From: Photobacterium pectinilyticum
GTDB lineage: Bacteria; Pseudomonadota; Gammaproteobacteria; Enterobacterales; Vibrionaceae
DNA: 64,000 nucleotides
NCBI RefSeq assembly: GCF_024357955.1
Contig: NZ_JANEYT010000005.1
Coordinates: 62,001-126,000, forward strand
Direction of reading: 5' to 3'
The position numbers and the translations under genes are program-made. This document shows positions 36,775-46,779 of this stretch, one piece after another. The notes under the pieces were generated by a model. It ran no database searches, was not told the origin of the DNA, and worked only from the letters and a program-made list of their open reading frames with translations. How positions within the stretch are numbered: position 1 is the stretch's first letter; every line of letters starts with the position of its first letter.

Positions 36775-36914
36775 AAGTGTTGTGTAGCTCACAGGCTATA
36801 GCAATTTTCTTTTCAGTTTGTTAACACCTCTGTAAAATCGTTAGCTAGCTGAAACAAGAAATAGAACACGAATACTTAGCCTGTTAGGGATAAAAGACTT
36901 ACAACGAGGTCATG

Positions 36915-38342
36915 ATGAGTAAAGAAATTAAAGCCCAGGTAGTGGTGTTGGGTTCAGGCCCTGCAGGTTACTCTGCGGCATTCCGTTGCGCCGACTTAGG
37001 TCTGGATACGGTTCTAATCGAAAAATACAGCACGCTTGGTGGTGTATGTCTGAACGTGGGTTGTATCCCATCTAAAGCACTGCTTCACGTTGCTAAAGTC
37101 ATCGAAGAAGCAAAAGCAATGGCTGAGCACGGTGTCGTATTCGGTGAACCTCAAACCGATATCAACAAAATCCGTGTTTGGAAAGAAAAAGTAATTACCC
37201 AGCTTACTGGCGGTCTTGGCGGTATGGCTAAGATGCGTAAAGTTAACGTAGTTAACGGTTACGGTAAATTTACGGGTCCTAACACTATCGTTGTTGAAGG
37301 CGAAGACGGTCCAACAACTGTTAACTTCGATAACGCTATCGTTGCGGCAGGTTCTCGTCCTATCGAGCTACCGTTTATCCCGCACGAAGATTCACGTATC
37401 TGGGATTCAACTGACGCGCTTGAGCTGAAAGAAGTACCAGAAAAGCTACTTGTGATGGGTGGCGGTATCATCGGCCTAGAAATGGGTACGGTTTACCACG
37501 CGCTGGGTTCTCAGGTTGACGTTGTTGAAATGTTCGACCAGGTAATCCCTGCTGCTGACAAAGACATCATCAAAGTCTTCACTAAACGCATCAAGAAGAA
37601 ATTCAATCTGATGCTAGAGACGAAAGTAACGGCTGTAGAAGCGCGTGAAGATGGTATCTACGTGTCAATGGAAGGCAAGAAAGCACCAGCTGAAGCCGTT
37701 CGTTACGATGCAGTACTTGTTGCTATCGGCCGTGTACCAAACGGTAAGCTAATCGACGCTGAAAAAGCGGGGATCGAAGTTGACGAGCGTGGCTTCATCA
37801 ACGTTGATAAGCAGATGCGTACTAACGTTGCTCACATCCACGCTATCGGTGACATCGTTGGCCAGCCAATGCTTGCTCACAAAGGTGTGCATGAAGGTCA
37901 TGTAGCCGCTGAAGTTATCTCTGGTAAGAAGCACTACTTCGACCCTAAAGTCATTCCTTCCATTGCGTACACTGAGCCAGAAGTCGCATGGGTTGGTAAG
38001 ACGGAGAAAGAAGCAAAAGCTGAAGGTATCAACTATGAAGTTGCGACTTTCCCTTGGGCTGCTTCTGGTCGTGCCATTGCCTCTGACTGTGCTGACGGTA
38101 TGACGAAGATGATCTTCGACAAAGACACGCACCGCGTGATCGGTGGTGCTATCGTTGGTACTAACGGTGGTGAGCTACTGGGTGAAATTGGTCTAGCGAT
38201 CGAGATGGGTTGTGACGCCGAAGATATCGCGCTAACTATCCACGCTCACCCAACGCTACACGAGTCTGTTGGCCTGGCTGCAGAAGTATTCGAAGGTTCA
38301 ATCACTGACCTTCCAAATGCCAAAGCGGTTAAGCGTAAGTAA
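36915..38342 (+). CDS. lpdA: Dihydrolipoamide dehydrogenase E3 (Lpd)
   Basis: Lpd reoxidises dihydrolipoamide with FAD and NAD+ in the pyruvate and 2-oxoglutarate dehydrogenase complexes and the glycine cleavage system. From the ATG at 36915 it has 475 aa; another ATG directly precedes it at 36912. FAD motif VVLGSGPAGYSAA, the redox disulfide GGVCLNVGC (C45, C50), NAD-binding GGGIIGLEMG and the C-terminal catalytic HAHPTLHE are present. The 182-bp gap from aceF, with a possible promoter, allows separate expression for its other partners. Confidence 0.97.
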   Translation: MSKEIKAQVVVLGSGPAGYSAAFRCADLGLDTVLIEKYSTLGGVCLNVGCIPSKALLHVAKVIEEAKAMAEHGVVFGEPQTDINKIRVWKEKVITQLTGGLGGMAKMRKVNVVNGYGKFTGPNTIVVEGEDGPTTVNFDNAIVAAGSRPIELPFIPHEDSRIWDSTDALELKEVPEKLLVMGGGIIGLEMGTVYHALGSQVDVVEMFDQVIPAADKDIIKVFTKRIKKKFNLMLETKVTAVEAREDGIYVSMEGKKAPAEAVRYDAVLVAIGRVPNGKLIDAEKAGIEVDERGFINVDKQMRTNVAHIHAIGDIVGQPMLAHKGVHEGHVAAEVISGKKHYFDPKVIPSIAYTEPEVAWVGKTEKEAKAEGINYEVATFPWAASGRAIASDCADGMTKMIFDKDTHRVIGGAIVGTNGGELLGEIGLAIEMGCDAEDIALTIHAHPTLHESVGLAAEVFEGSITDLPNAKAVKRK

Positions 38343-38365
38343 TTGCTACTTTGCTAACGACTATG

Positions 38366-38391
38366 AAAAAAGCGCCCTAGGGCGCTTTTTT
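38366..38391. terminator. lpdA terminator (probably bidirectional)
   Basis: AAAAAAGCGCCC-TA-GGGCGCTTTTTT, strongly symmetrical, between convergent transcripts. Confidence 0.93.
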
Positions 38392-38403
38392 TGTTTTTAC
38401 TTA

Positions 38404-38514: not shown

Positions 38515-38991
38515 TTACGGATACGCATACTCACCGCCATCCACCGCGAACACATCGGTAACAGGGCTGATACCGGTATCGGCGAACATTACTACCATCA
38601 ACAATGACTGTTGTTGCTTGCCAATCGTCAGAGTTTGGTTAAGCAGGCCATCATCAATGACCTGCAACAGTAACTGTGAGTCTGGATTGGGGACCGGAGA
38701 GTTGTCATCACCACTCCATTGCTGGTAAAAGCCGACATAAACGCGTTGGTCGGTGAGAGACCGTAGGTCGATATTAACCTCGAGTTGCTGACTAGTGGTG
38801 AAATCATAGTCCGGTGCTACCTTGATACTCGCCATGGTCACCGTGTCGTCTTCGCTGGTGCTGTTTTCGGAAGAAGAAGCTGGTGAGCTTGAATTCGAAC
38901 TGTCATCACCGCCTCCACCACCACCACAACCGGTCAGTCCCAAGGCCAATATCCAACTGCAAATTAAGAGCGTAAATTGTTTCATCATCAA
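38515..38991 (-). CDS. Small lipoprotein with polyglycine and Ser/Asn/Glu-rich linker, function unknown
   Basis: I do not recognise this family. The 158 aa protein begins with a signal peptide (MMMKQFTLLICSWILALGL) and lipobox LTGC, and the cysteine is followed directly by six glycines. A Ser/Asn/Asp/Glu-rich linker follows (about 28-50), then a beta-rich domain of about 105 residues. A non-Asp residue follows the lipid-modified cysteine, so outer-membrane sorting is likely by the Lol rule. It lies 57 nt downstream of the LruC-domain gene on the same strand and is probably co-transcribed, perhaps as a surface or periplasmic partner. Confidence 0.75.
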   Translation of the reverse strand: MMMKQFTLLICSWILALGLTGCGGGGGGDDSSNSSSPASSSENSTSEDDTVTMASIKVAPDYDFTTSQQLEVNIDLRSLTDQRVYVGFYQQWSGDDNSPVPNPDSQLLLQVIDDGLLNQTLTIGKQQQSLLMVVMFADTGISPVTDVFAVDGGEYAYP

Positions 38992-39048
38992 TTCCTCTGT
39001 TCTTCCAATTATTGCTATTCCAAGCTATTGCTCTTAGGGGCCATGCTG

Positions 39049-41121
39049 TTATTCGAGGCCATAGAGGTGTTGGCTAACCCTTTTTGATTTAATAAACCAG
39101 TCGACATGGGCACCTGTTGTGGCGTAATCGAAAAACCGAGGGTATGCCAATAACATATCGACTTGCTCCAGTGGGTGAGACCAAGTCTCAGTGACGATAA
39201 ATCCCCATGGCAGGCCATTTTCGGTGCGGTATAGACTGCCGATTCCATTGTCACTGCGATCATCGTAGTTACCCATCAGCTCAAGGCTGGCATTACCGAG
39301 ATCGGTTGGCTCGTAGTCATCCAGATGAATTTCAAGCCCGCGCCCAACGGACGTACCTTCGCCATGGTTGAAGCCATCGACTGCAAAAATGAAGGGATCA
39401 AATGGAGCTGCCGGCAGGGTCCAAGACTTCACTCCAGCGATGAGGGGCAAAGTGACAGAGAAGTTGAATTTCTCGATCTCTTGGCAGTTTTCCCGTGTAC
39501 GATGGAAGCGACAACTGGTCTGGGCGTGAGCACTGAGATCTTGCGAAATAATGATCACAGCATTTCCTTGGCCTGTTTCTAGTGGTGAGTCGGCAACCAC
39601 ACGCCCGTTTCGAGTGAAAATAATGTTATCTTCATCGACTGAGCTACGGCTGAGTCGTGGTAGATGAATACCAAAGCCGTTGCGATAGTCGGCTCCAAGG
39701 GCCTGCAACGTCCCTGAGATCTTGATCTGGCGGGCATCATCGTTTTGATCGGTTTTGATCTCGATTTGATAGCGCATCACTACATCATTGAGATCGTAGT
39801 CGCCTTCACGGGGCCAGCTGTCTTCAAATGCGGCGGTAAAAGGTCCGTAGCGGGAGATATTAAGTTGAGCGTTTTCTAAAGTGACTTGGTAGTCTTCCAC
39901 TTCGCCATCGGGCGCCCCACCAAACGCGGGTAGGTTTTCTGCACTGCTAAGGCGGAATCTCGCCCAAGTCTCACCAGCAGTAACAAAATCAGGTACATTG
40001 ACCACCAATGAGTTCATGCCTGCAGACAATGCCTGACCTGTACTGATTTGTTCATTGTTGTCACTGAAATCACCGTCTTTATTCCAGTCAATCCAGGCAT
40101 TAAGAAAGCCGCCTGCTTGATTGGCTGTAACGGTGATCATAGCTTGCTCACCATTTTGTAACGGGGTAATGATGACGCCGTCCTCATCGTCGACTCCTGT
40201 TGCATCATCACTCGTGCCAACGACTGATTCACTGTCAGGCGCAACGCCGCCAAGGAAGAGAGAATTGTTGCTGAGATCGTGGCGGGCACCGTTATTGTCA
40301 ACAGAGGTCTGATAACTGTCCGGGGCATCGCCTAAATCAATGGATTCAATTTCGACAGGAGCTGAGGCGCAACGTACCCCGTCGTTGAGACCAGACTTCG
40401 GCCCGGCAGCAAATTGAACAGCCGTTGTATCGATATTGTTTGGGTCCGAGACATCGATGGTAAAAATGATCCCGTCCTGATTGCGGCTGAAATAGAAATT
40501 GCCACTGGCCTCGAAGTAGGCGGCACCGAATGTTCCTGTTACCCCGGCATTACCCAAAATGGTTTTGCTACCGTCATTTGGGTTGATGCGGTAGAAATGC
40601 CCCTGCTTGTTGTCGACCGCATAAATATTGCCGTCGTCCGGGTGGAAGGCAAAGTCGGTTATCTTCATACTGCCATCGCTGCCCTCTATTTTTCTGCCCT
40701 TGAGGTAATTCGGGTCGTTTTCGTCGAGTGGAATTGTGTACAGCCCCGATCGGTAGAGATAGTAGGTGTTATTGGCGACATCGCCGACATAAAAAGGCGA
40801 ATCTGGCAAGCCGGTGACAGGCAGGGTGGTTGCCTTGAAGTCATTGCCAACCTGTACCACTTTTTTCTGGGTGGTGTTGAAGGCATAAATGAAGTTGTCG
40901 GTTTCATTGTAGCCCGCTGCATTGAGGTTCCCTGTTTGCCCAACATCCGTTTGCAGGGTCTGAAACGCACCGGTCAGTAGGTTTACGCCGTATATGTTGG
41001 TTTGTGAGTCCTGCATCAGAAATGCAGTGTATGGGCAGGTATCGAAGGCTGCACTTGCACTGTTGGCGTTGTGACTCAATAACAAAAAAGGCACTACCGA
41101 AAGTAAAAATTTTTTATCCAT
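39049..41121 (-). CDS. Secreted LruC-domain protein with GEVED and N-terminal propeller-like region
   Basis: The 690 aa protein has a signal peptide (about 1-24). Residues 30-250 are repeated short beta segments with kinship to the NHL/propeller-like N-domain often joined to LruC. Residues about 262-415 are an acidic GEVED-type module: DLGDAPDSY at the start, a DWNKDGDFSD calcium-loop-like motif, and GEVEDYQV at its end. The LruC domain (DUF4842) follows from about 425 with AFEDSWPREGDYDLNDVV. No C-terminal anchor or sorting motif is seen. A strong ribosome-binding site (AAGGGGG) precedes the ATG. It pairs with the downstream lipoprotein. Function is unknown; extracellular matrix or surface binding is a guess from domain type. 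Confidence 0.8.
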   Translation of the reverse strand: MDKKFLLSVVPFLLLSHNANSASAAFDTCPYTAFLMQDSQTNIYGVNLLTGAFQTLQTDVGQTGNLNAAGYNETDNFIYAFNTTQKKVVQVGNDFKATTLPVTGLPDSPFYVGDVANNTYYLYRSGLYTIPLDENDPNYLKGRKIEGSDGSMKITDFAFHPDDGNIYAVDNKQGHFYRINPNDGSKTILGNAGVTGTFGAAYFEASGNFYFSRNQDGIIFTIDVSDPNNIDTTAVQFAAGPKSGLNDGVRCASAPVEIESIDLGDAPDSYQTSVDNNGARHDLSNNSLFLGGVAPDSESVVGTSDDATGVDDEDGVIITPLQNGEQAMITVTANQAGGFLNAWIDWNKDGDFSDNNEQISTGQALSAGMNSLVVNVPDFVTAGETWARFRLSSAENLPAFGGAPDGEVEDYQVTLENAQLNISRYGPFTAAFEDSWPREGDYDLNDVVMRYQIEIKTDQNDDARQIKISGTLQALGADYRNGFGIHLPRLSRSSVDEDNIIFTRNGRVVADSPLETGQGNAVIIISQDLSAHAQTSCRFHRTRENCQEIEKFNFSVTLPLIAGVKSWTLPAAPFDPFIFAVDGFNHGEGTSVGRGLEIHLDDYEPTDLGNASLELMGNYDDRSDNGIGSLYRTENGLPWGFIVTETWSHPLEQVDMLLAYPRFFDYATTGAHVDWFIKSKRVSQHLYGLE

Positions 41122-41251
41122 TGTTAAATTTCCCCCTTAGCTAATTAGCACTAATCAACTTTGATACCACAATTTCAAGCTACTGTTTTATTTGGGTTTG
41201 TTTCGGGGGTGAAGAGTATGGGAATGTACAGTTTTGCAAATTATTGAAAAA

Positions 41252-41479
41252 CTATTGGGTGGAAGTTGTATCTTGCGAAGCATTATGTCGAAGCGGTTGC
41301 AACTCAGCTGGTGACTTTGGATCGTGGCGTTGACCAGTGTTACTGGTACGATCAGCAATAGAGGCATCGAACAATTGATACTGGTTTTTGATATCATTCA
41401 GACGCTGGATTATTTTGCTTTCATCTGCTTGCATTTTGCCAGCATGATAAAGGTCGGTAACAAAGTGGCTGGTCGCCAA
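41252..41479 (-). CDS. Uncertain small protein or gene remnant, no ATG start
   Basis: A minus-strand frame ending at a TAG (41252-41254) reads like real protein, with helix-forming segments such as KLILATAKQLATSHF and IIQRLNDIKNQYQLFD, then a polar tail. The frame is open back to a stop at 41567-41569. The only usual start codons are a TTG at 41479 and an internal ATG, and no convincing ribosome-binding site is seen. It may be a small gene with a rare start, or the 3' remnant of a decayed gene. I do not recognise the family. Confidence 0.3.
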   Translation of the reverse strand: MATSHFVTDLYHAGKMQADESKIIQRLNDIKNQYQLFDASIADRTSNTGQRHDPKSPAELQPLRHNASQDTTSTQ

Positions 41480-41560
41480 TTGCTTGGCAGTTGCCAGGAT
41501 CAGCTTTTGTTTGATTGTGAATCGGTTAACGTCACAGTCTTTATAGTTTTGTCTGAAAAT

Positions 41561-41581
41561 GTGAACCTAGCGTGCGTTCAC
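41561..41581. promoter_or_regulatory. Inverted repeat GTGAAC-N9-GTTCAC upstream of the patatin gene
   Basis: Six-base perfect arms end 13 bp before the ATG at 41595. It could be an operator or a leader hairpin; the binding factor is unknown. Confidence 0.35.
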
Positions 41582-41594
41582 GGAATAAGTAGCC

Positions 41595-43907
41595 ATGACT
41601 CAAGAACAGCCATTTGTGGCAACTCACAGTGTGTTTTGCTATCTGCAGTACTGTTATAGAACTTTAGTGCTAAGCGTCACACTTTTGTGCGTGTTCAGTG
41701 TCCCTTTTGCTTCCATAGCATTTGCCGAGCAGCGGCCGAAGATCGGTGTCGTGCTGGGCGGTGGCGGTGCCAAGGGCGCAGCGCACATCGGGGTGCTCAA
41801 GGCGCTGGAGGATCTGCAGATCCCGGTCGATTACATTGCCGGAACCAGTATGGGCGCCTATGTCGGTGGCCTTTATGCGACCGGGATGAGCGCTGATGAG
41901 ATTGAGGCGTTGCTGACCAGTGTTGACTGGGAGCAGGGCTATCAAGATCGGGTCATGCGCGGTGATCGCCGGGTTAGGGAAAAGCAGCAAGAAGATCGTT
42001 ATCAAATCACGAGTGAGCTGGGTTTTGGGTTTTGGGAGCTGAAAGCACCGAGGGGGATTGTCCAGGGGCAGACCATGGGGGCGATTCTACGCTCGACCTC
42101 CGGCAATTTACCGGTATTTGATAGTTTTGATCAGTTGGTGATCCCCTACCGTGCGGTCGCTACGGATATTGAGAACCTTGAGCCAGTGGTACTTGATAAA
42201 GGCGACTTAGCCGAGGTGATGCAGGCCAGTATGTCAATTCCCGGTTTACTGCCGCCCAAGGAGGTAAAGGGCAAGCTATTGGTTGATGGTGGGATCACCG
42301 ATAACCTGCCGATTGAGGTGGTCCGCAACATGGGAGCGGATATCATTATTGCGGTTGATATCAGTAACGAATTCAAAAAACGCGATGAGCTGAATACTTA
42401 TTTTGCCGTCATGGATCAGCTGACGGACTTTATGGTTCGCTATAACGCTGACCGCCAGATTGCCTTGTTATCAGATAAAGACTTCCTTATTCGACCTAAT
42501 ATCCGCGGCATTAACACTGCTGATTTTGCCCGTATGCCGCTGGCTTTCGAGAGCGGTTATGTTGAGGTGATGGCTATGGCTGATGAGTTAAATCACCTTG
42601 GCCGCAGTACTTGGTTCCAGGATTACGTCGATAATAAACAGAAGCGCCGTCGCCATCTGGTGCCGCTTGATGAACGGGTGGTCGATGAAATCCGGTTGGA
42701 AAATAACAGTAGCTATGCCGATGGTGTACTGCTTGATCGCTTGGAGCTGGAAGCTGGCAAGGCAATTAGCTCGGAGGAGTTGGACGCGAGTGTAAGTAGT
42801 TTATATGCCCTCGACCGTTTTGAGCGGGTCGATTACCGCATTGAAAAAATTGACGGTGAGAATGTCATTTTACTCAATGTGGAGGAGAAAAGTTGGGGGC
42901 CAAACTTCATCGACTTCCGTTTTGCCCTTGAAGATGATTTTGAAAACAGTACTGATTACTCCTTTGGTATGGCGTTCAATGTCACCGGGCTTAGCCGCGC
43001 TGGGGCTGAGTGGCGCACCGAGCTGGAATATGGCTCGGACAAGCGTATTGCGACGGGGCTATACCTGCCTTTTGTCAAAGATCATGACTGGTTTTCCTTG
43101 ATAACGGCTGAGTATAAAAATACCGATTACAATATTCCCTTATTTGGGGAAGAGCCTGCTTTAGAAGATATTGATATATTCATTCCTGCAAATTATACCG
43201 ATACCATTTTTGATGCTTCGTTCGGTTGGCAACCAAAGCTGTGGCAAGAGTTCAGGATGGGAATGCGTTATATCAGCGGGGAAACGGAGGTATTGGGTTT
43301 TCCAAACTTCGGGGTTGATAAGCGTAAGAGTCAGGTTGGCTATATCCGTTACAGCCTAGATACATTGGATGACTTTATGCTGCCCAAGCAAGGTAACCTG
43401 CTTGAACTCGAGTTGGCCGCATCGGATGACAAAAGTCGTTTCGATGGGAGTGAGTTTGATGATTTTTCTGTGCATTTTGATATGAACTGGAAGGGAGCGG
43501 TGACCTATGGTGACCATACCTTCATGGGCAAGGCAGAATACGGCCGGGTGAGTTCGGACTTTGACCTGCGGCTCGATCCTAAAGAGCTGGGCGGCTTCCT
43601 TAATTTGTCCGGGATCCCGAAAAACAGCTTATCGGGCAACAACAAAATATTCACCGCTGCCATTTATCGCTATAACCTGACGGAGCAGGACTTTGGCTTG
43701 TTCAAATCCTCGGTCTTCTTCGGTGGCTCAGTGGAATACGGCGGGGTCTATAACAATTCCGATCTGAATTTCAAGGATGTCCCGCTCTATACTGCAGGCA
43801 GCCTGTACTCGGGGATCACCACGCCCGTCGGTCCGCTTATCTTGGCTTATGGCCGTACCGAACAGTCAAATCATGCGTTTTATGTCTTTTTTGGCGGGGC
43901 GTTGTAG
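41595..43907 (+). CDS. PlpD-type patatin phospholipase autotransporter (type Vd secretion)
   Basis: The 770 aa protein has a long N-terminal signal region (about 1-44), then a patatin lipase domain with oxyanion loop GGGGAKG (55-61), nucleophile GTSMG (Ser85) and catalytic Asp231 in DGG. A POTRA-like domain follows at about 365-425 (VVDEIRLENNSSYADG to VEEKSWGP), and then a BamA/TamA-like 16-strand barrel to the C-terminus. This is the layout of PlpD from Pseudomonas, in which the barrel exports the lipase domain. All catalytic residues are intact, so it should be an active phospholipase A at or beyond the outer membrane. The last residue is Leu rather than the common Phe/Trp. Confidence 0.88.
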   Translation: MTQEQPFVATHSVFCYLQYCYRTLVLSVTLLCVFSVPFASIAFAEQRPKIGVVLGGGGAKGAAHIGVLKALEDLQIPVDYIAGTSMGAYVGGLYATGMSADEIEALLTSVDWEQGYQDRVMRGDRRVREKQQEDRYQITSELGFGFWELKAPRGIVQGQTMGAILRSTSGNLPVFDSFDQLVIPYRAVATDIENLEPVVLDKGDLAEVMQASMSIPGLLPPKEVKGKLLVDGGITDNLPIEVVRNMGADIIIAVDISNEFKKRDELNTYFAVMDQLTDFMVRYNADRQIALLSDKDFLIRPNIRGINTADFARMPLAFESGYVEVMAMADELNHLGRSTWFQDYVDNKQKRRRHLVPLDERVVDEIRLENNSSYADGVLLDRLELEAGKAISSEELDASVSSLYALDRFERVDYRIEKIDGENVILLNVEEKSWGPNFIDFRFALEDDFENSTDYSFGMAFNVTGLSRAGAEWRTELEYGSDKRIATGLYLPFVKDHDWFSLITAEYKNTDYNIPLFGEEPALEDIDIFIPANYTDTIFDASFGWQPKLWQEFRMGMRYISGETEVLGFPNFGVDKRKSQVGYIRYSLDTLDDFMLPKQGNLLELELAASDDKSRFDGSEFDDFSVHFDMNWKGAVTYGDHTFMGKAEYGRVSSDFDLRLDPKELGGFLNLSGIPKNSLSGNNKIFTAAIYRYNLTEQDFGLFKSSVFFGGSVEYGGVYNNSDLNFKDVPLYTAGSLYSGITTPVGPLILAYGRTEQSNHAFYVFFGGAL

Positions 43908-44181: not shown

Positions 44182-46779
44182 GTGCTTGAAGCCTACCGTA
44201 AACACGTCGAAGAACGTGCTGCAGAAGGAGTTGTTCCAAAGCCGCTCGATGCTGAGCAAGTTGCCGCTTTGATTGAATTACTGAAGACCCCACCGGCAGG
44301 TGAGGACGCCTTTCTGCTAGATCTGCTGGAAAATCGTATTCCCCCTGGTGTTGATGAAGCGGCCTACGTTAAGGCTGGATTTCTTGCGGCATTGACTAAA
44401 GGTGAAGCGCAGTCCCCAATCGTCAGCAAGGAAAAAGCTGCAGAGTTGTTGGGTACGATGCAAGGTGGTTACAACATTGAGCCGCTGATTGCACTGCTTG
44501 ACGATGATGCTCTGGCCCCGATTGCGGTTAAGACGTTGTCCCATACTCTACTGATGTTCGATGCCTTCTATGACGTCGAAGAGAAAGCGAAAGCCGGCAA
44601 TGCATTTGCCAAGCAGGTGATCCAATCTTGGGCGGATGCCGAGTGGTTCCTGTCCAAGCCTGAGCTGGCAGAAAAAATCACCCTGACCGTATTCAAAGTG
44701 ACTGGCGAAACCAATACCGATGATCTGTCACCGGCACCGGATGCGTGGTCGCGTCCTGATATCCCGCTACATGCCTTGGCGATGTTGAAGAACGAACGCG
44801 AAGGTATCGAACCTGATCAGCCGGGCTCGATTGGCCCTATCAAGCAGATCGAAGCACTGAAAGCGAAAGGTCATCAGCTGGTTTATGTCGGCGATGTTGT
44901 TGGTACCGGCTCATCACGTAAGTCGGCGACTAACTCGGTGCTTTGGTTCATGGGTGACGATATCCCTAATGTACCTAACAAGCGTGCTGGTGGTTATGTC
45001 CTGGGCGGTAAGATTGCGCCAATCTTTTTCAATACCATGGAAGATGCGGGTGCGCTGCCGATTGAAGTGGATGTCACCGCGCTGAACATGGGCGATGTGA
45101 TTGATGTCTACCCGTTCAAGGGTGAAGTACGCCGCCATGGTAGTGATGATGTTGTATCGACGTTTGAGCTGAAAACCGATGTGCTGATTGACGAAGTGCG
45201 TGCTGGTGGCCGTATTCCACTGATCATTGGCCGCGGCCTGACTGATCGGGCCCGCCAATCACTGGGCCTACCATCATCTGATGTGTTCCGCCGCCCTGTT
45301 GCGGTTGAAGATTCAGGCAAAGGGTATACCTTGGCCCAGAAGATGGTGGGTAAAGCCTGCGGTGTCGAGGGTATTCGTCCTGGGACGTACTGTGAGCCGA
45401 AAATGACAACGGTAGGCTCACAAGATACCACCGGCCCAATGACCCGTGATGAACTAAAAGATCTGGCGTGTCTTGGTTTTTCGGCTGAATTGACCATGCA
45501 GTCGTTCTGTCACACTTCGGCCTACCCTAAGCCGATTGATGTGAACACCCACCATACCTTGCCTGATTTCATCATGAACCGCGGTGGCGTGTCGTTACGC
45601 CCGGGTGACGGTGTTATTCACTCATGGCTGAACCGTATGCTGCTGCCTGATACCGTGGGTACAGGTGGTGACTCACACACCCGTTTCCCTCTGGGTATTT
45701 CGTTCCCGGCAGGCTCTGGTCTGGTCGCATTTGCTGCCGCAACCGGTGTGATGCCGCTTGATATGCCAGAATCTATTTTGGTGCGCTTCAAGGGTGAGAT
45801 GCAAGAAGGGATCACCCTACGTGACTTGGTGCATGCCATCCCTTATTACGCGATCCAGCAAGGTCTGTTGACGGTAGAGAAAGCCGGTAAGATCAACGAA
45901 TTCTCTGGCCGTGTACTGGAAATCGAAGGTGTTGAGCACCTAACGGTAGAGCAGGCATTTGAGCTTTCTGATGCGTCAGCCGAGCGCAGTGCTGCAGGCT
46001 GTACGGTGAAGTTGTCGCAAGAATCGATTGCTGAGTACTTGAACTCTAACATCGTGATGCTTAAGTGGATGATTGCCGAAGGTTACGGCGACCGCCGTAC
46101 TATCGAGCGTCGTATCACGGCAATGGAAGCGTGGTTGGCGAACCCTGAGTTGATGGAAGCAGATAACGATGCCGAGTACACGCATGTTATCGAAATCGAC
46201 CTGGCAGAGATCAACCAGCCTATCTTGTGTGCACCAAACGATCCGGATGATGCACGTCTGCTTTCTGATGTGCAGGGGACAGCGATTGATGAAGTGTTCA
46301 TCGGTTCGTGTATGACCAACATCGGTCACTTCCGTGCGGCAGGTAAACTGCTTGAGAAGTTCGGTGGTCAGCTTGATACCCGCCTGTGGGTGGCTCCGCC
46401 GACCAAGATGGATAGAGATCAGCTTACCGAAGAAGGCTACTACGGAATCTTCGGTCGCGCTGGCGTACGTATCGAAACCCCAGGTTGTTCATTGTGTATG
46501 GGTAACCAGGCCCGTGTCGCTGACAAGGCAACGGTGATGTCGACATCGACCCGTAACTTCCCGAACCGTTTGGGTACTGGTGCCAATGTTTACCTGTCTT
46601 CTGCTGAACTCGCAGCGGTCGGTGCTATTCTTGGCCGTATTCCAACCAAGGAAGAGTACCTTGAGTACGCCAAGCAAATTGATGCGACGGCAGCGGATAC
46701 CTACCGTTACCTCAATTTCCACCGTATGGAACAGTACACCAAGAAAGCCGATGATGTGATCATCCAGCAACCGGCTTAA
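44182..46779 (+). CDS. acnB: Aconitate hydratase B / 2-methylisocitrate dehydratase AcnB
   Basis: AcnB isomerises citrate to isocitrate with a 4Fe-4S cluster; the apo form binds mRNA in E. coli. The protein has 865 aa, the same as E. coli. The start is a GTG at 44182 (AGGAATAT ribosome-binding region), giving the family N-terminus [16 protein letters not shown]. The N-terminal HEAT-like domain is followed by the swivel domain and then domains 1-3. Cluster cysteines are in [11 protein letters not shown] and [11 protein letters not shown]. Domain order (swivel before the catalytic core) is specific to AcnB. Confidence 0.98.

Follow-up and report, generated by a model that had tools for sequence, protein, structure and literature searches.

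A lipoprotein paired with LruC-domain proteins in Gammaproteobacteria: candidate halves of a split surface module

Introduction

LruC-domain proteins have been studied in Leptospira. According to the accessible portions of the papers concerned, LIC13086 contains DUF4842, LruC/LIC13086 proteins are located at the outer membrane (PMC8280789) and LruC proteins are candidates for vaccines or diagnostics (PMC8280789, PMC9901810); BACOVA_00967 of Bacteroides ovatus (PDB 3OQQ) is called a putative calcium-binding lipoprotein in the accessible part of PMC8280789. Here we analyze a gene pair of Photobacterium pectinilyticum that encodes a protein with the same LruC/DUF4842 domain and a small partner lipoprotein. 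The pair lies in a stretch of 64,000 nucleotides (NCBI RefSeq assembly GCF_024357955.1, contig NZ_JANEYT010000005.1, positions 62,001 to 126,000 of the forward strand), the whole of which is called the window below; its first letter is position 1. The Leptospira and B. ovatus proteins are single-chain lipoproteins, whereas the LruC protein of the window is not lipidated and carries a beta-propeller and a GEVED domain, with the lipid anchor on the separate partner.

Other described proteins resemble this one in single domains. DUF3494 ice-binding proteins carry the same C-terminal DUF4842 on another exported cargo (PMC9957290, accessible part). The window protein has no ice-binding domain, and DUF3494 gave no match over the cut-off in 36 LruC-bearing genomes (L157 left out). 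CshA-type fibrillar adhesins have GEVED (PF20009) in common with the window protein, and GEVED was defined, as the accessible part of PMC10952558 has it, in fibrillar adhesins beside ligand-binding domains; in the window protein no CshA_NR2-type ligand-binding domain was matched by Pfam at E up to 1. In the LruC/DUF4842 literature no mention of the partner lipoprotein was found in the openly accessible portions of five papers (PMC8280789, PMC9957290, PMC10952558, PMC9245377, PMC9040878; subscription papers were outside the search), and no function of the LruC domain was found in the literature searched. Publications pairing LruC with Vibrio were, by title, Leptospira work only.

The LruC gene and its partner

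The sequence-only reading had described three genes for envelope proteins between lpdA (36912-38342) and acnB (44182-46779), and all of them are present: the lipoprotein and LruC genes on the minus strand and a divergent PlpD-type gene on the plus strand. The LruC gene (39049..41121, minus strand) encodes 690 residues with an N-terminal signal peptide, as judged by eye. It is the single LruC gene of this type in the source genome, which gave one TIGR04456 match. The partner gene (38515..38988, minus strand; supported by the open reading frame (ORF) listing, a 61-sequence profile and an AlphaFold2 model of the core) lies 57 nucleotides 3' of it. The listed ORF, 38515-38991 on the minus strand, opens at TTG 38991 and has 158 residues; by eye, ATG 38988, which follows AGAGGAAT and gives 157 residues, is the likelier true start.

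The pairing of the two genes is obligate by computation. The sequence-only reading had staked the link between them on their co-occurrence, which proved to be near-universal. Across 197 Vibrionaceae genomes, the LruC protein as query found a match in 137 (weak GEVED-region matches counted) and the lipoprotein as sole query in 112, and the lipoprotein profile matched in 30 of the 30 best LruC loci. We then counted both genes in 61 Vibrionaceae genomes by searches with a 61-row partner alignment and with TIGR04456, which matched in 34 of the 61. The partner was found by profile directly 3' and on the same strand for 53 of 56 LruC genes (57 rows, of which a small one in G057, 592989-593108, was joined to its neighbor). 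The remaining three (L256-L258) have a CGGG-type lipoprotein directly 5', assigned by eye and from weak profile scores, in L258 by eye only; two of these 5' partners resemble the fusion domain described below (hhalign probability 89) and the common partner core less (probability 60). In the other direction, all 54 selected partner matches adjoin an LruC gene and none lies elsewhere, where a selected match is a row whose model end reaches position 140 among matches listed to about E 1e-4. The 54 include, for one LruC gene, a second partner-like match that lies 1.07 kb downstream of it. The other rows of this search were mainly signal and linker matches; two of them, in ORFs of more than 1000 residues, extend to positions 104 and 120. 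The gap from LruC gene to partner has a median of 11 nucleotides and is at most 60 nucleotides in 57 of 60 cases. Another 20 stretches, chosen mainly where the lipoprotein-only search had shown none, together with some second copies, contained 22 LruC genes, all with the partner 3'. It should be noted that these sets overlap in part, several loci of the genome and genome-contig searches being the same gene.

The pairing extends beyond Vibrionaceae and follows the LruC domain. A genome-contig scan across Gammaproteobacteria gave 406 confirmed loci, and 65 of the best 80 carry the LruC domain (Vibrio, Photobacterium, Aliivibrio, Enterovibrio, Ferrimonas, Marinobacter, Shewanella, Pseudoalteromonas, Colwellia, Thalassotalea, Psychromonas, Leucothrix and others). 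The partner lies directly 3' in 64 of the 65, the sole miss (L124) being a locus at a contig end. GEVED proteins without LruC among the same best 80 loci had the partner in 0 of 15 cases, 11 of which had at least 500 nucleotides of 3' sequence; thus, it is the LruC domain, rather than GEVED or the propeller, that the partner goes with. The partner is kept where LruC proteins carry different N-terminal domains (L162, L163, L165, L166, L171, L172, L193), and DUF4114-type LruC proteins are also paired (L230, L249, L253). In a search centered on Alteromonadaceae, around a Colwellia genome, LruC was found in 38 of 196 genomes; the profile found the partner in 29 of 30 loci, 28 times 3' and once 5' (L250), the other locus being L247. 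LruC was present in five of 274 genomes of a class-wide sample, the window genome included. One of the other four has the partner 3' (L071, E 9e-34) and two have a weakly related lipoprotein 5' (L073 and L074, E 3e-6 and 6e-11); the fourth, L075, is discussed below.

Some loci deserve separate mention. At L075/L080 (G273:C102) the LruC gene lies, by eye, directly downstream of a MshL/PilQ-type secretin-like gene, and no partner was found. In Plesiomonas L082 a possible partner (hmmsearch E 0.44), whose lipobox is doubtful, lies downstream; it was left out of the counts. In ten Vibrio loci (L010-L012, L017, L021, L026, L055-L057, L059) the partner is followed by a small ORF of about 100-120 residues with the motif SNTLTQS[LI]DG[QH]RRYLT, possibly a third member in this genus. 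The pair also occurs on Vibrio campbellii plasmids (L081, NZ_CP030790.1 and four like records), and it can therefore be mobile.

It is possible that the two products are independent surface lipoproteins or adhesins that are only co-transcribed and do not touch, since operons often group proteins of one process that never meet. We consider this improbable: all 54 selected partner matches in the 61 genomes adjoin an LruC gene, the linkage is kept when the order is reversed (partner 5' in L256-L258, L090, L073 and L074), and a form in which the two are fused exists.

Domains and folds of the two proteins

The LruC protein consists of a cargo part and a C-terminal LruC domain. The cargo comprises a DUF6923 beta-propeller (residues 35-252, 40366..41019, minus strand; Pfam E 2.2e-25), with propeller folds aligning to residues 26-285 of the model, and a GEVED domain (residues 340-414, 39880..40104, minus strand; PF20009, E 2.7e-17). 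The LruC domain, TIGR04456, spans residues 429-676 (39094..39837, minus strand; 242.7 bits against a cut-off of 36) and overlaps DUF4842 at residues 464-670 (Pfam E 8.5e-50). The protein was modeled with confidence (mean predicted local distance difference test score, pLDDT, 89; predicted template modeling score 0.70). PDB 3oqq aligns to residues 419-690 of the model (Z 22.8, root-mean-square deviation 2.9, 250 residues, 20% identity; Foldseek E 1.3e-10) and is the only significant sequence match of the LruC domain in the PDB.

The calcium-loop-like motif of the sequence-only reading is present as EDSWPREGDYDLND at residues 433-446 (39784..39825, minus strand), of the form EDxxPxxGDxDxND. Among 54 gammaproteobacterial sequences, residues E433, D434, P437, D441, D443, N445 and D446 do not vary, and the corresponding residues are invariant in nine further sequences (eight Bacteroidota and one phage record). 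This conservation points to a probable calcium site. DUF4114 is annotated over a similar motif in some LruC proteins. L230 and L253 have DUF4114 and LruC/DUF4842 in one protein, with a common motif of the type [FY]ED...GDxDxND, which hints that the two may share a calcium-binding design.

The partner is, as had been read from the sequence, a lipoprotein with a glycine-rich start encoded in the same direction as LruC: a lipobox, LTGC, occupies residues 19-22 of the 158-residue ORF (38926..38937, minus strand) and is followed by GGGGGG. The lipobox Cys is invariant across the 61-row alignment, from which L123:844-2295 and the short or doubtful rows L108, L125, L144 and L160 were left out. A simple pattern found the lipobox in 97 of 116 partner frames, and inspection found it in 16 of the remaining 19, with L160 (frame split) and L250 (frame truncated by the edge of the locus) counted among the 16. 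Residues 60-158 (38518..38814, minus strand) form a beta-sandwich domain, a relative of the domain at the N-terminus of LruC proteins in Bacteroidota, as indicated by hhalign and by a seven-strand AlphaFold2 model of high confidence (pLDDT about 96). We define the partner family by the lipobox, a Gly-rich linker, the core profile and an adjacent LruC gene, and the window lipoprotein has all of these. Pfam and NCBIfam families do not cover it beyond its signal and linker. The window partner gave nothing over the curated cut-offs of Pfam and NCBIfam, and no Pfam family matches more than one of the 61 members at E 0.01. The NCBIfam matches among them, such as fusolisin (21 members) and SslE (6), are signal or linker matches as far as ranges are given. 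PHROGs gave weak signal or linker matches only for the partner and none for the LruC protein, and PADLOC gave no match for the pair.

Searching PDB sequences with the partner profile matched the AcfD homologue/SslE (E 9e-5) and MtrF and the MtrC/OmcA family (E 0.03-0.17), in each case within the first 57 profile positions, that is, the low-complexity N-terminus. SslE, MtrC and OmcA have a signal and a Cys-Gly/Ser linker like that of the partner, with unrelated folded parts, and are, according to the accessible part of PMC9245377, surface lipoproteins exported by the type II secretion system. On the strength of the CGGGG-type N-terminus, type II secretion may be guessed as the export route.

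By structure, the partner is most similar to TssJ/SciN, a small beta-sandwich outer-membrane lipoprotein of the type VI secretion system, which holds TssM at the outer membrane. TssJ tops a crowded list (Z 6.7, 3.5 A over 93 residues; Foldseek E 0.018-0.15), in which Z values below 8 may reflect a common strand arrangement only. The partner has no significant sequence match to TssJ/SciN, and no type VI secretion genes lie beside the pair.

In the same 50 proteins, partner distances correlate with those of the LruC domain at r 0.82, of the propeller at 0.66 and of GEVED at 0.71. The partial correlation for LruC is 0.66 (versus 0.18), and 0 of 1000 label permutations reached it.

Split and fused forms

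LruC domains were found by tblastn in 27 plasmid records, those of Bacteroidota and Leptospira among them. A lipobox lies, by eye, near the N-terminus of LruC in all eight Bacteroidota loci (in L086 upstream of the annotated start). When these loci were searched by hmmsearch with the gammaproteobacterial partner core, the top match was a true V. campbellii partner, and the next-best matches fell in the region just after the lipobox in five of the eight Bacteroidota LruC proteins (E 0.0005-0.009). We aligned the eight Bacteroidota N-terminal domains with that of one viral contig of the fused form and with three partners from phages and compared this fusion domain with the partner core by hhalign, which gave a probability of 93-94 and a score of 43-44 (42.3 with the eight bacterial fusions alone). 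The controls stayed far below: the best of 200 column shuffles scored 16.5, the reversed profile 8.3, GEVED 19.2, the propeller 14.9 and LruC 13.1. The partner and the first domain of fused LruC proteins are therefore very probably homologous. A search of the PDB with the Bacteroidota N-terminal profile gave no match at E up to 10, and the N-terminal part of 3oqq scored 3.4 bits against the fusion profile, not significant by itself.

Viral contigs gave no relative with the window protein alone and 11 loci with the Bacteroidota alignment. Two of these are split pairs on IMG/VR contigs (L094 and L096), one is a fusion (L095) and one has no readable LruC frame (L102). The split form with the partner directly 5' occurs in phage-filed contigs at 2991-4753 of L091 (LR756501, a 735-kb phage record), 3023-4801 of L094 and 3013-4801 of L096. 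A host-surface module encoded by phages would be unexpected.

The fused form gives indirect support to the suggestion in the sequence-only reading that a lipoprotein anchor and a large secreted protein make up a two-part surface structure. We regard it as probable, though well short of certain, that the LruC protein and its partner are two halves of one surface module. This module would be a two-chain assembly, mostly lipid-anchored and probably calcium-dependent, that shows variable cargo at the surface.

Several observations weigh against this reading. L075 in the class sample has LruC without a recognised partner. By hmmsearch, the partner core gave no score with three of the eight Bacteroidota N-termini or with the Leptospira one. 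Among the viral loci, L097 is a 310-residue LruC lipoprotein without a partner domain, and L098-L101, L103 and L104 are other LruC lipoproteins without a recognised partner domain in their N-termini. The folds that come closest to the partner (TssJ, hydroxyisourate hydrolase, Ig-like) all have Z below 8, the best being 6.7. The co-variation is confounded because the LruC-coding end of the gene is also nearest to the partner gene in the DNA. Finally, the anchor is not always where it would be expected: the partners of L252 and L253 have no lipobox, the frame in L238 is ambiguous, L247 has a related 178-residue protein without a lipobox 3' of LruC (L247, L252 and L253 are DUF4114-type loci), and the LruC protein of L069 has its own lipobox, yet a partner-like lipoprotein follows. 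L069 (G107:C34, 5856-11065) contains two LruC genes in tandem, with a partner-like lipoprotein after each one, and it is the second LruC protein that bears the lipobox.

Partners without a lipobox (L247, L252, L253) and an LruC protein with one (L069) show that the role of the partner goes beyond tethering, and hence favor a structural subunit or, as the main rival, a chaperone. The lipoprotein would in the latter case be a chaperone dedicated to secretion or folding: a foldase with a lipid anchor that serves the LruC domain in the periplasm or as it crosses the outer membrane, and that is absent from the final structure. That one partner goes with one LruC domain, regardless of cargo, would fit such a helper, and an LruC protein that has a lipobox itself suits a helper as well as a subunit. 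On the other hand, in Bacteroidota the homologous domain is in the same chain as LruC, so that the chaperone would enter the product, and some partners have no membrane anchor. We therefore think a chaperone unlikely, while giving it more weight than mere co-transcription, and prefer the structural subunit.

Neighboring genes

The PlpD-type gene (41595..43907, plus strand) is a neighbor that we judge not to be part of the system. Its product has a Patatin domain (residues 52-242, Pfam E 1.1e-34) and a POTRA domain (363-432, E 2.3e-6). The lipase had been read as a divergent type Vd autotransporter; both domains were matched, and the assignment to type Vd is by these two domains only. PADLOC gave weak phospholipase-effector matches for the patatin domain. 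Of 101 genomes, 97 have a PlpD match at E 0.001 or better; several of these matches are weak (E 1e-5 to 4e-4) and probably represent other patatins.

The sequence-only reading had also counted the lipase in the LruC set. A three-component locus, in which the lipase is co-regulated with the pair or acts on it, would agree with the divergent arrangement in the window, in at least G131 and G137, and in L105. The distribution of plpD speaks against it: acnB is directly beside plpD in 20 of 20 PlpD loci, the window included; seven Photobacterium genomes (G007, G022, G032, G052, G064, G072, G099) have a strong PlpD match (E 0) and no LruC match; in G097 and G060 the pair adjoins lpdA on one side and is followed by acnB on the other, without a plpD match in between; and in Vibrio genomes with comparable contigs plpD and the pair are on different contigs (e.g. 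G012, G040, G055). We thus rejected PlpD as a component and consider such a locus very improbable indeed. The LruC pair lies beside lpdA in the eight best loci, all from Photobacterium (L001-L008). Since plpD lies at acnB in all 20 loci and the pair is kept without plpD in two genomes, the conserved unit is the lpdA-plpD-acnB block, in which the LruC pair is lodged.

A terminator-like perfect stem (38363..38394, strand not assigned) lies between the convergent lpdA and lipoprotein/LruC operon. A search of the region for direct repeats and promoters gave none above chance level. Elsewhere in the window, a class A bacterial RNase P RNA is found at 1684-2073.

Possible mechanism and implications

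If the structural reading is correct, the partner would be an outer-membrane lipoprotein in which a flexible linker of Gly, Ser and acidic residues connects the lipid-anchored Cys to a compact beta-sandwich. The LruC protein would be exported with the propeller and GEVED cargo ahead of the C-terminal LruC domain and its acidic site. The partner sandwich may then dock non-covalently on the LruC domain, and docking would keep the cargo on the cell surface to mediate adhesion or to bind ligands. In Bacteroidota the two halves are joined in one lipoprotein chain, in the order lipobox, partner-type domain, cargo, LruC.

More tentatively, and with rather less confidence than in the module itself, we suggest a portable surface-display clamp, split or fused, that is common to Gammaproteobacteria, Bacteroidota and some phages. 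The partner would usually be the lipid anchor on which a calcium-loaded LruC domain docks, with any cargo (propeller, GEVED, DUF4114 or ice-binding domain) between, as a non-covalent counterpart of sortase-type sorting. LruC proteins occur in gut Bacteroidota as well as in Leptospira, and a dedicated partner domain is a first handle on the LruC domain, as a candidate half of a complex. If true, the clamp would explain why DUF4842 rides on many cargo domains and would give diderm bacteria and some phages a further route of protein display that needs neither sortases nor type IX secretion system signals.

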